From the NCBI GenBank assembly GCA_002721755.1, contig PBLL01000007.1, positions 1 through 42,395 of the forward strand: a stretch of 42,395 nucleotides of DNA, given 5' to 3'. This document shows, piece by piece, positions 1-4,243 of the stretch. Position numbers and translations under genes: made by a program. The notes under the pieces were generated by a model. That model was not told the origin of the DNA. It saw only the letters and a list, made by a program, of their open reading frames with translations, and ran no database searches. The first letter of the stretch is position 1. The number at the start of each line of letters is the position of its first letter. This DNA is from Actinomycetota bacterium. GTDB taxonomy: Bacteria > Actinomycetota > Acidimicrobiia > Acidimicrobiales > MedAcidi-G1.

Positions 1-422
1 CACCTCCGATGATGGGTCCGATGATGGGTCCGATGATGGGTCCGATGATGGGTCCGATGATGGGTCCGATGATGGGTGAGGGTTTTATGCCGCCGATGAT
101 GCGTGAGAACTTAGACGGAATAGAAATTGAGATATTCGAAGAAATTGAACAGATTTTTGATTCAGTTATTGATTCACTTGGATCTATAACCGAATTAGAT
201 CCATCTAGTTTTCAATCTCCGGAAGAGGTGATTTCTCAATCAGAAGAGCTAACTGTAAGTCTTATCAAAGATTTGGTCAAAGAAATCTTTGATGAACGGT
301 TTGAAGAAGAGATTTCTGGATTGGTTAACCGTGTAGCTAGAGATGCACTAACTCAAATTATTGAAGGTTTAAATCAAGAAACCGTTGAGCAACCATTAGA
401 GGCAAGTACTGAAAGTAATTAA
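1..422 (+). CDS. Partial acidic protein with N-terminal MMGP tandem repeat
   Basis: This is the 3' part of a gene whose start lies before the window. The frame is open to the left edge, and two proline codons precede the first visible ATG at 9, so that ATG need not be the true start. The visible protein opens with five MMGP units plus a partial MMG (codons 9-77). A hinge follows with further Met/Pro residues, then about 100 residues of acidic, probably helical sequence rich in Glu, Ile and Leu. There is no catalytic motif, and I do not recognise a family. It ends 24 bases before nadE on the same strand, so the two may be cotranscribed. The Met/Gly/Pro stretch is probably disordered. Confidence 0.6.
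   Translation, partial: PPMMGPMMGPMMGPMMGPMMGPMMGEGFMPPMMRENLDGIEIEIFEEIEQIFDSVIDSLGSITELDPSSFQSPEEVISQSEELTVSLIKDLVKEIFDERFEEEISGLVNRVARDALTQIIEGLNQETVEQPLEASTESN
9..77 (+). repeat. 12-bp tandem repeat encoding MMGP
   Basis: Five exact copies of the 12-base unit ATGATGGGTCCG run from 9 to 68, followed by a 9-base partial copy to 77. The unit length is a multiple of three, so gain or loss of copies keeps the reading frame. The copies are identical at the nucleotide level, which suggests recent expansion or slippage. Confidence 0.9.
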
Positions 423-446: not shown

Positions 447-2123
447 ATGAACACGATACGGCTAGCTCTTGCACAGATAAATCCAGTTGTAGGTGATCTA
501 GAAGGGAATGTTGAACTAATCGGCGATCTCATAGACAAAGTTGATCATTGCGACCTAGCAGTATTTGGTGAGATGTCATTAACAGGCTATCCACTTGAGG
601 ATTTAGTTCTAAAACCTGGGTTTATTGCGGATAATCAAAGTGCTCTAAAGACTCTCGCTTCTATGTCTGGCAACTGTGCATTAGTTATCGGGTTTGCTGA
701 TTCAGATGGCATAAACGTATACAACTCAATAGCGATTTGCCATCAGGGTGAGATCATAGGGAGTTATAGAAAACAAAATCTTCCAAACGTTGAGGTCTTT
801 GACGAGGTTAGAAACTTTTCTCCGGGATCAGATCCGTTGAATCTTTTCTCAATAGGGGGAACGAGTATTGGTTTCGTAATTTGTGAAGATTTGTGGGTCC
901 CAAATGGCCCAGTTGAGATGCTTGTTGAAGGAGGCGCCCAACTTATTGTTGCTACCAATGGTTCCCCATTCCACCAAGGAAAACAACAAGAAAGAGAGAT
1001 TCTTGTAAATGAAATCGCGCGAAAAAGTGAAATCCCGATCGCATATGTGAATTTAGTTGGAGGTCAAGATGAGCTTGTTTTTGACGGCGGTTCTTTTATA
1101 ACTGATTCATCAGGTGAAATAGTTTTAAGGTTGCCGAGTTTTTATGAGTCAGTGGCAGTGTCAGATATTTTTGTTGATCAAAGAAAAAAAGTCGAAAATT
1201 TTTTTCCGGTTATAGATGTTTCTCCCAACAGAGATCATGAAGGAGAACTTAAACCCTCAATTGCACCCGTCCTAGAAAATATAGAGGAACTTTATTTGGC
1301 CTTAGTTACTGCTACTCGAGACTACGTTTTGAAAAGTGGATTTAAAAATGTTTGTTTAGGCCTTTCTGGAGGCATTGACTCAGCTTTAGTAGCAGCTATT
1401 GCTTCTGATTCTTTGGGTTCGGAGAATGTAACTGCTGTGATGATGCCTTCACGTTATTCGAGTGACCATTCATTAATAGATGCCGAACAATTGGTTGAAA
1501 ACATTGGAATATCATCGATTAATTTTCCAATTAGTCAAATTCATTCAGTATTTTCAGAACAGTGGAAACGAAATCTTGACGATGAGATTACTGGAATCAC
1601 GGATGAGAATTTACAATCAAGGATTCGTGGAGTTTTATTGATGGCGTTTGCAAATCAACATGACTGGTTAGTTCTAACTACGGGAAATAAAAGCGAGGCT
1701 GCAGTGGGTTATTCGACTCTGTACGGGGATACAGCTGGCGCATATGCAGTTATTAAAGATGTTTACAAAACCAAAGTATACGAGTTAGCTCGTTGGAGAA
1801 ATGAAACTGGAGAGAGTGAAGTTATTCCGATTTCAATTATTAACAAACCTCCTTCGGCAGAATTGCGACCAGATCAACGTGATGATCAAAGCTTGCCTCC
1901 TTATGAGATTTTAGATCCACTTTTGGAGTCTTACATTGAAGGTGATCGAACAAGAGCCGAATTAATAGAAGATGGATTTGACGCTGAAATGGTCGATAAG
2001 ATTGTTCAACTGGTTGACCGATCCGAATATAAGAGACGACAGAATCCCCCTGGAGTCAGAGTTACACAAAAAGGCTTTGGCAGGGATCGTCGTCTACCGC
2101 TTATAAATCGCTACAGAGGTTAA
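447..2123 (+). CDS. nadE: Glutamine-dependent NAD+ synthetase
   Basis: The enzyme makes NAD+ from nicotinic acid adenine dinucleotide, using ATP and ammonia released from glutamine. It is the last step of NAD biosynthesis and is cytosolic. At 558 aa it has the usual two-domain bacterial form. The N-terminal nitrilase-type amidase shows the Glu-Lys-Cys triad: E42 in FGEMSLTGYP, K109 in YRKQNLPN and C146 in VICEDLW. The C-terminal synthetase carries the PP-loop SGGIDS at about 307-312. ATG 447 follows the preceding stop by 24 bases and gives a standard N-terminus (NTIRLALAQINPVVGDL). A gap of about 100 bases to the sigma gene suggests a separate transcript downstream. Confidence 0.96.
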   Translation: MNTIRLALAQINPVVGDLEGNVELIGDLIDKVDHCDLAVFGEMSLTGYPLEDLVLKPGFIADNQSALKTLASMSGNCALVIGFADSDGINVYNSIAICHQGEIIGSYRKQNLPNVEVFDEVRNFSPGSDPLNLFSIGGTSIGFVICEDLWVPNGPVEMLVEGGAQLIVATNGSPFHQGKQQEREILVNEIARKSEIPIAYVNLVGGQDELVFDGGSFITDSSGEIVLRLPSFYESVAVSDIFVDQRKKVENFFPVIDVSPNRDHEGELKPSIAPVLENIEELYLALVTATRDYVLKSGFKNVCLGLSGGIDSALVAAIASDSLGSENVTAVMMPSRYSSDHSLIDAEQLVENIGISSINFPISQIHSVFSEQWKRNLDDEITGITDENLQSRIRGVLLMAFANQHDWLVLTTGNKSEAAVGYSTLYGDTAGAYAVIKDVYKTKVYELARWRNETGESEVIPISIINKPPSAELRPDQRDDQSLPPYEILDPLLESYIEGDRTRAELIEDGFDAEMVDKIVQLVDRSEYKRRQNPPGVRVTQKGFGRDRRLPLINRYRG

Positions 2124-2230
2124 TTTTTTTCAATTTTTGCGTAACCATCTGATTTTTTTGTTTGTTGTTCGCCGGAGCATCGATAAGGTGACGCGCGACA
2201 AGCTTGCATTTATTTTTTGGGGGATTGGAC

Positions 2231-3169
2231 GTGGCCAAAGAAAGAGTCGATAGAGATGAGGAAGATTTAGTTCGACTTTATCTAACAGACATTGGTCAGT
2301 ATCCATTATTAACCAAAGAAGGCGAAGTAGAACTAGCTAAAAAAATTGAAGAAGGTGTTAAAGCTGAAGCTGAGAAAGAGGCTAATGGGTCAAAATTAAC
2401 TCCAGCCGAACTCAGAAAATTAAAGGTTACGATTCGACGTGGTTCGAAAGCAGAGCGAACTTTTGTGCAATCTAATTTGAGACTTGTTGTTTCTATAGCT
2501 AAAAAATATCAAGCTTCAGGTTTACCCCTTTTAGATTTGATCCAGGAGGGAAATCTCGGCTTAATGCATGCTGTGGAGAAATTTGATTGGCGCAAAGGTT
2601 TCAAATTCTCGACCTATGCGACTTGGTGGATAAGACAGGCAATAACAAGAGGTATCGCTAATACAGGGCGAACAATTCGTTTGCCTGTCCACGCAGGAGA
2701 CACACTTGCTCGTCTTCAAAAGGCTCGTTCACGTCTTGAAATAAAATTCGGTCGACAAGCAACTTTGGCAGAACTATCAGCTGAGGTTGAAATGCCAGAA
2801 GATAAAGTTACGGAAGCTCTTAGATTTGCTGCTGAACCACTCTCTCTAAGCGAACCATTACGTGAAGATGGGGATGCTGAATTGGGCGATGTAGTAGAAG
2901 ACCGCTCAGCTGAATCACCTTTTGAAACTGCTGCTACTGCACTTTTACCTGAGGAAATTTCTCGTCTTCTTTCTCCTTTGGATGAAAGAGAAAGAGAAAT
3001 TTTAAAGTTGCGCTTCGGCCTTGATCGAGGGGAACCACGGACCCTTGAAGAAGTCGGAGAACATTTTGATTTGACCAGGGAAAGAATTCGCCAAATTGAA
3101 GCTCGTGCTATGTCTAAATTACGGCATCCAAGTAGTGACACGGGCGCCCGAGACCTTTTGGCTGTTTGA
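2231..3169 (+). CDS. RNA polymerase sigma-70 family factor (group 1/2, RpoD/HrdB-like)
   Basis: This sigma factor directs RNA polymerase to promoters. I chose GTG 2231 because GGGGGA lies six bases upstream. A TTG at 2204 in the same frame would only add a non-conserved leader. The 312-aa product has region 1.2 ([15 protein letters not shown], 13-27), region 2 with [13 protein letters not shown] (81-93), [11 protein letters not shown] and [16 protein letters not shown] (about 126-141), region 3, and region 4 ending in the helix-turn-helix [20 protein letters not shown] (281-300). It lacks region 1.1 and has a short linker after 1.2. In region 2.3-2.4 it reads [15 protein letters not shown] instead of the primary-sigma ADQARTIRIPVHMVE. 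That favours a group 2 (non-essential housekeeping-like) sigma over the principal one, but this cannot be settled without the rest of the genome. Confidence 0.9.
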
Positions 3170-3177
3170 AAATAATT

Positions 3178-3273
3178 TGGCGGAGGTGGACGGGAATCGA
3201 ACCCGCCGGACGGGGATCGCCCGTCCCGCCCGCTTTGAAGGCGGGGGAGCCCACCAGGTACTCGGACACCTCC
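3178..3273 (-). tRNA. selC: tRNA-Sec (UCA anticodon), selenocysteine tRNA
   Basis: Read on the minus strand, this is a 96-base tRNA with encoded CCA (3178-3180) and discriminator G. The acceptor strand GGAGGTG pairs with CACCTCC. The anticodon stem CCCGC/GCGGG closes a 7-base loop CTTCAAA whose anticodon is TCA (3236-3238), which reads UGA. A long variable arm (GGACGGG pairing with CCCGTCC) and a T arm with loop TTCGATT follow. Length, long variable arm, extended D arm, G73 and UCA together identify selenocysteine tRNA, the adaptor for SelB-dependent UGA recoding. The eighth acceptor pair expected in bacterial tRNA-Sec looks like a T/C mismatch. A UGA suppressor derived from tRNA-Ser is the less likely alternative. 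It lies 8 bases after the sigma gene, in the opposite orientation. Confidence 0.92.
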
Positions 3274-3463: not shown

Positions 3464-4243
3464 TCAATTGATTGAACGAAAACGTTTAAATGTCTTAACG
3501 ATTCCTGCACCTAAAAGAAAAGTTAGAATTGTGACAGCGATCCATTTACGGTTTAGAGGTACACGGTCTCCTAAAGCAATGGGTCTTACAAATTCTAAAA
3601 TCGGCCAGTTTTTCTCTTCTGCTTGTTTTTTAAGCTCTCGATCCGGATTTACAGCTACTGGGTTACCCACTAATTCCAACATTGGAATATCAGTTGAAGA
3701 ATCAGAGTATGCCCAAGAATTTTCAAGTGAGATATCTTTTCTTAAAGCCAAATCAATTATTGCTTCTGCTTTATGAGACCCTTCAGCATAAAATTCTACC
3801 TCCCCTGTATAGCGACCTTCAGAGTCAACAACAGGTGTGGTAGCTATAAAATCATCAATATCTAGATGTTCTGCTAAGGGTTCAACGATTTCTGTTGGGC
3901 TTGCTGAAACAAGTACCAGTAATCGACCTTCTTGTCTGTGTTCCTCGATTAGGTCAAGTGCATCATCGTAAACAATCGGTTCGATTACTTCAGTTAAATT
4001 ATCTCTCACAAGTCGTTTCATCGCCTGTTGGTTCATACCTGTTGCTAAACGAAGCGCTGTTTTTCTTGCCTTTTCAAGACTTTCTTCATCAGCTCCAAAA
4101 AATTTAAACAATAAATGACCCCATGCTGTTCGTAAAGCCATTGGAAAACTTAAATAGCCCGTTTTTCTCAAAGTAGGTGCGTAGGCAATTAATGAAGTCT
4201 TAGCAATAACTGTTTTATCTAAGTCAAAAAAAGCAGCTTCCAC
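3464..4243 (-). CDS. HAD-IB family phosphatase with C-terminal membrane helix
   Basis: This is a haloacid-dehalogenase superfamily hydrolase of the SerB-like IB subfamily, acting on phosphomonoesters. Motif I is FDLDKT (D7 nucleophile, D9), motif II is VSASP at 112-116, motif III is the lysine in SHKAE (K158), and motif IV is YSDSSTDIPML with D181 and D185. A helical cap occupies about 20-100. A hydrophobic segment at about 232-250, after the catalytic domain, ends in a basic tail (KTFKRFRSIN) and suggests a membrane-tethered enzyme. In actinobacteria such HAD-IB proteins are often linked to phospholipid or acyltransferase functions, but the substrate cannot be read here. Confidence 0.88.
   Translation of the reverse strand: MEAAFFDLDKTVIAKTSLIAYAPTLRKTGYLSFPMALRTAWGHLLFKFFGADEESLEKARKTALRLATGMNQQAMKRLVRDNLTEVIEPIVYDDALDLIEEHRQEGRLLVLVSASPTEIVEPLAEHLDIDDFIATTPVVDSEGRYTGEVEFYAEGSHKAEAIIDLALRKDISLENSWAYSDSSTDIPMLELVGNPVAVNPDRELKKQAEEKNWPILEFVRPIALGDRVPLNRKWIAVTILTFLLGAGIVKTFKRFRSIN

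Follow-up and report, generated by a model that had tools for sequence, protein, structure and literature searches.

In the bacterial selenocysteine (Sec) pathway, SelA converts serylated tRNA-Sec using selenophosphate from SelD, and SelB delivers the product to UGA codons with a bSECIS hairpin downstream. Organisms with six or more selenoprotein genes are regarded as selenoprotein-rich (PMC5029168), and those found in surveys are mainly Deltaproteobacteria and Clostridia, most of them described as anaerobes (PMC1794560, PMC5029168). The selenoproteome of the Global Ocean Sampling (PMC2398784) lists UGSC, PrdB (UxxC), AhpD-like (CxxU), FdhA, and SelD, as well as Prx (TxxU), Prx-like (UGC), and Trx-like proteins; 'actino' and 'acidimicrob' are absent from its main text. 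The marine Acidimicrobiales family MedAcidi-G1, whose genomes measure approximately 2–2.4 Mb, is described in a paper with no mention of selenium in its main text (PMC10205998); the source organism probably belongs to this family. A full-text literature search for selenoproteins in Acidimicrobiia, with most subscription journals outside its reach, returned no relevant paper. The genomes analyzed here contain the same selenoprotein families as the ocean survey; the survey set was derived from metagenome reads, whereas the present one can be assigned to a single actinobacterial family. Every selenoprotein family found in this study is already known.

The window, the whole stretch of 42,395 nucleotides that was analyzed (contig PBLL01000007.1 of assembly GCA_002721755.1), contains a tRNA-Sec gene with the following features:

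3178–3273, minus strand: tRNA-Sec gene (selC), 96 nt (ARAGORN; Rfam RF01852; covariation)
3178–3180, minus strand: encoded CCA, within the 96 nt of selC
3181, minus strand: discriminator G (G73), alignment column 93, invariant
3236–3238, minus strand: UCA anticodon, complementary to UGA (ARAGORN, tca; tRNA position 36)
3266, minus strand: U8 of the acceptor stem, facing C85 (3189) in a mismatched eighth pair (10 of 10 distinct actinobacterial sequences)

ARAGORN called tRNA-SeC(tca) at exactly 3178–3273 on the minus strand. RF01852 matched 3182–3273 over the whole model with 64.4 bits (E = 5.4e-11; gathering score 47), and it was the sole Rfam match within the window. Both give the Sec isotype, in agreement with the sequence-only reading of this DNA, which had described a complete tRNA-Sec with a UCA anticodon and a long variable arm. 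The 5' acceptor strand, read 5' to 3', is GGAGGUGU. The D-stem has six pairs and one bulged A, the anticodon stem has five pairs enclosing CUUCAAA, the long variable arm forms a stem of seven pairs, and the T-stem has five pairs with a G.U pair at its end. The gene thus shares with the bacterial tRNA-Sec of RF01852 the UCA anticodon, the type-II form with a long variable arm, the 8+5 acceptor/T-arm length, the six-pair D-stem, G73, and CCA. It differs in the non-standard eighth acceptor pair and the bulged D-stem, and both departures are common to other actinobacterial copies. By itself, the tRNA is ordinary and represents a further case of an already known bacterial tRNA-Sec.

The eighth acceptor pair, whose mismatch had already been noticed from the sequence, was confirmed as U.C. 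A hypothetical ninth pair would be mismatched as well, and the acceptor and T-arm together contain 12 standard pairs instead of 13. Bacterial departures from the 13-pair arm, including 7/5 forms, bulges, and 12-pair forms, have been reported (PMC5330540); therefore, 12 standard pairs do not bar membership in tRNA-Sec. A mismatched pair could also mark a decaying Sec trait, in which the tRNA would be a relic under relaxed selection and selenoproteins would no longer be made after the loss of selD. However, U.C occupies this position in all ten distinct tRNA-Sec sequences compared (eight from Acidimicrobiales, one from a Tsukamurella plasmid, and one from a Streptomyces plasmid), and the two plasmid copies adjoin annotated selA, selB, and selD. 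The mismatch is thus read from the alignment as a fixed trait of the actinobacterial branch compared, not as a sign of decay. The sequence-only reading had suggested that it could affect recognition by SelA or SelB; nothing suggests such impairment here, given that U.C is fixed in actinobacterial tRNA-Sec. Among the ten sequences, 13 stem pairs vary on both sides yet stay paired, a count reached by none of 500 shuffles, and slid controls fell far below the real alignment, in which 96.8% of stem cells are paired.

Within the family, 33 of 37 genomes carry a full tRNA-Sec above the cut-off; among genomes of the order's other families, 14 of 24 do, and 12 of 24 have selA above the cut-off. The Sec trait is therefore patchy across the order. 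This wide occurrence in relatives, together with the stem covariation, excludes a chance origin of the tRNA-Sec call. The genes around selC are arranged as follows:

447–2123, plus strand: NAD synthetase (NadE-like) gene; order as in relative G021 (ORF; tblastn to G021)
2204–3169, plus strand: RNA polymerase sigma factor gene, convergent with selC (ORF; tblastn to G021, 88% identity, same neighbor)
3464–4243, minus strand: HAD-like phosphatase gene, upstream of selC (ORF; tblastn to G021, 62% identity, same neighbor)

In G021, the HAD gene, tRNA-Sec, the sigma factor gene, and NadE all lie within a single stretch of 18 kb, which further on also includes selA-selB. The distance from tRNA-Sec to selA is approximately 12–13 kb in many family members. 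Contig C6, which holds the window, and contig C23 cover the two ends of the G021-type arrangement, so that the window probably adjoins C23 across an assembly gap. The contig start (window 1–86) lies inside a short tandem repeat encoding MMGP units, and contig C35 of congener G003 stops near the same place; the repeat is a probable cause of assembly breaks between selC and selA. The plasmids of Tsukamurella and Streptomyces (NZ_LR134459.1 and NZ_CP109276.1) have the same tRNA-Sec signature, including U.C, and selA beside selB, as here. They cluster selC, selD, selA, and selB, whereas in the marine family relatives selC lies approximately 12–13 kb from selA-selB and selD is located elsewhere.

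The sequence-only reading had implied SelA, SelB, SelD, and at least one selenoprotein elsewhere in the genome. The genome search located the first two on contig C23, adjacent and both intact:

C23, 6467–7780: selA (TIGR00474, 389.5 bits, over the cut-off; PF03841 also matched)
C23, 7799–9523: selB (TIGR00475, 289.3 bits, over the cut-off; C-terminal winged helix, SelB-wing_3, present)

The source organism is a member of Acidimicrobiales with marine genomes as its near relatives. The closest named SelA proteins, with 78–79% identity, are from Acidimicrobiales bacterium AG-414-N20, Candidatus Microthrix sp. UBA881 (label), and Acidimicrobiaceae bacterium SAT1608. The predicted SelD is the part that was missing: selD was not found in the 78%-complete assembly of the source genome. 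It is present in 34 of 37 family genomes, each time with one in-frame TGA, in the context HGAG-U-GCK in the relatives' genes read out; these were read by a readthrough scan after an initial SelD pattern had given none. Outside the genus, SelD fails the strict GU-loop test described below, and its SECIS may differ there or the strict pattern may be too narrow. The missing selD and the mismatched pair are what a decaying trait could draw on. On the other side, selA and selB are intact, the TGA codons and hairpins are conserved (see below), and the approximately 20-kb selD-bearing stretches of four congeners had no blastn match at all in the source assembly, indicating a gap there. From this comparison, selD most likely falls within the missing fifth of the genome, and its presence in the source strain would follow from its relatives; decay of the trait is highly improbable. 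The comparisons argue instead, with high confidence, that selC is a functional, conserved gene and an ordinary working part of a rich selenium-protein repertoire.

We scanned all 42 contigs (1,549,675 bases) for TGA codons flanked on both sides by coding sequence. The 1.55 Mb assembled at 78% completeness correspond to approximately 2 Mb in total, and at 42.5% GC the genome is only moderately AT-rich, a milder bias than the sequence-only reading had conveyed. Many high-scoring candidates turned out to be ordinary stops inside operons, with a new start after them. After the removal of such stops, 11 predicted selenoprotein genes remained (TGA position and protein-family match):

C30:25801: FdhA (TIGR01591, 649 bits, just under the cut-off)
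C21:52315: PrdB-like protein (TIGR04483, PF07355)
C17:38793: PrdB-like protein (TIGR04483, PF07355)
C9:1134: UGSC protein (PF24696)
C36:26914: UGSC protein (PF24696)
C35:1367: AhpD/CMD protein (PF02627)
C36:5843: AhpD/CMD protein (PF02627, TIGR01926)
C14:5730: AhpD/CMD protein (PF02627, NF041238)
C4:4627: Prx (PF00578)
C41:6280: ResA-like protein with UGC (NF041054, below the cut-off)
C4:34736: Trx-like protein (PF00085, weak)

In these genes, the TGA lies at redox-active or metal-ligand positions, and the protein-family matches mostly span it. Nine TGA candidates, eight of which were accepted, had a CxxU/UxxC context, versus two TAA and one TAG in the same scan. Both UGSC genes match PF24696 (E = 5e-42 and 2e-41) and contain the ADUGSC motif, and the one tested against NF041046 scored 156 bits (cut-off 125). 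The single important selenoenzyme of the sequence-only reading is thus replaced by a selenoprotein-rich set. A further candidate at C4:5454 (locus L176), which belongs to CoA-transferase family III, was rejected: it lacks the strict hairpin, and none of 40 homologs in relatives has a TGA, although a different stop occurs in two of them. Judged from these homologs, its TGA is a private nonsense mutation or a sequencing error.

Downstream hairpins were assessed with a strict bSECIS pattern (stem of at least five pairs, loop of 3–7 nt with GU, 14–22 nt after UGA), adopted because loose scoring of SECIS elements by energy alone discriminated poorly (−6 kcal/mol was reached by 24 of 80 Cys codons). 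Eight of the 11 genes have the strict hairpin; the controls gave 55 hits among 2479 Cys codons and 8 among 427 ordinary TGA stops (approximately 2%). The pattern was fixed once the first folds had been inspected, which makes orthologs the better test. The Trx-like gene and two AhpD-like genes fail it. Orthologs carry the hairpin in 29 of 29 cases for UGSC, 27 of 28 for PrdB-like, and 10 of 10 for FdhA, where the latter two sets include the source genome's own copy and close orthologs are non-independent. The loop in FdhA and one AhpD gene is GGUCU, a sequence that also forms the core of the fdhF loop in E. coli.

The in-frame TGA is kept in 36 of 37 family genomes for UGSC, 35 of 37 for PrdB-like, and 22 of 23 searched for FdhA, and also in CMD/AhpD, the four groups for which conservation was examined. 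Restricting the count to UGSC, PrdB-like, FdhA, and CMD/AhpD plus SelD, the well-completed family genomes G009–G011, G013–G016, and G019–G021 have six to nine selenoprotein genes each. The still less likely alternative that the tRNA or selenoprotein genes were wrongly binned could appeal to the fragmented assembly (42 contigs, with the genes spread over many of them), but contamination is estimated at 0.43%, and both congeners and the wider family have orthologs that share the TGA (FdhA with 86–90% identity inside the genus). In addition, the selC and selA-selB neighborhoods each align with congener G003 for more than 10 kb at 77–80% nucleotide identity.

We propose a Sec-decoding pathway for this organism based on the tRNA, SelA, SelB, conserved TGA codons, downstream hairpins, and conserved gene order read from the genomes. 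The selC tRNA would be charged with serine, and SelA would turn Ser-tRNA into Sec-tRNA with selenophosphate from SelD. SelB would then bring Sec-tRNA to in-frame UGA codons, where a bSECIS hairpin, in most cases one whose apical loop carries GU and lies approximately 17–21 nt downstream, would allow readthrough. About a dozen selenoproteins would be served: FdhA, paired with NADH-dehydrogenase-like subunits; SelD itself, as in relatives; and UGSC, AhpD, Prx, Trx/ResA, and PrdB-like proteins, with enzyme activities predicted from their families. The selenoproteins other than FdhA and SelD are likely thiol-redox proteins. A working selC serving this SelA/SelB/SelD-dependent set is very probably the best explanation of the data.

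The less expected part is that a selenoprotein-rich set, with PrdB-like selenoproteins but no PrdA, is conserved in a family of planktonic, probably aerobic actinobacteria with small genomes. The window encodes succinate dehydrogenase, and a 2-oxoglutarate-type dioxygenase gene adjoins fdhA; both fit a probably aerobic life of the source organism. Selenoproteins recorded largely in ocean reads gain a host in this planktonic actinobacterium of approximately 2 Mb, which has at least 11 selenoprotein genes, the majority of them conserved within the family. Its genome context makes the functions of the UGSC and orphan PrdB-like selenoproteins approachable. We see about even odds that the family is selenoprotein-rich and an important source of oceanic UGSC, PrdB-like, and AhpD-like proteins, with the PrdA-less PrdB-like proteins acting as a separate enzyme.

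The two PrdB-like genes, with a UPxC motif, are located as follows:

L147:11811–13016 (C21:51871–53013): PrdB-like selenoprotein
L141:18392–19291 (C17:38569–39171): PrdB-like selenoprotein

They match TIGR04483 (E = 4e-35 and 5e-41) with 121 and 141 bits, under the equivalog cut-off of 300, and a search of 23 family genomes gave no match to PrdA. With no PrdA found in these genomes, the pair cannot be an ordinary D-proline reductase. PrdB-like selenoproteins occur family-wide, and one precedes an amidase-like gene.

The FdhA locus is as follows:

L155:4131–6038 (C30:24149–26038): Sec-containing FdhA; also L262–L271

This FdhA is without the N-terminal region (TIGR01591 positions 1–50) where a [4Fe-4S] cluster is normally bound. 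In the source genome and most congeners, MTERLTVP is immediately preceded by a stop, with no upstream Cys motif seen. A NuoE/NuoF-like fusion gene follows fdhA and an FdhD gene is nearby, suggesting that FdhA probably oxidizes formate with NAD+. The neighbors of fdhA (L155:6078–10068, C30) encode gamma-butyrobetaine-hydroxylase-like, hydroxyacyl/carnitine-dehydrogenase-like, BKACE, and FdhD proteins, and the neighborhood is possibly a carnitine/betaine route in which methyl groups end as formate.
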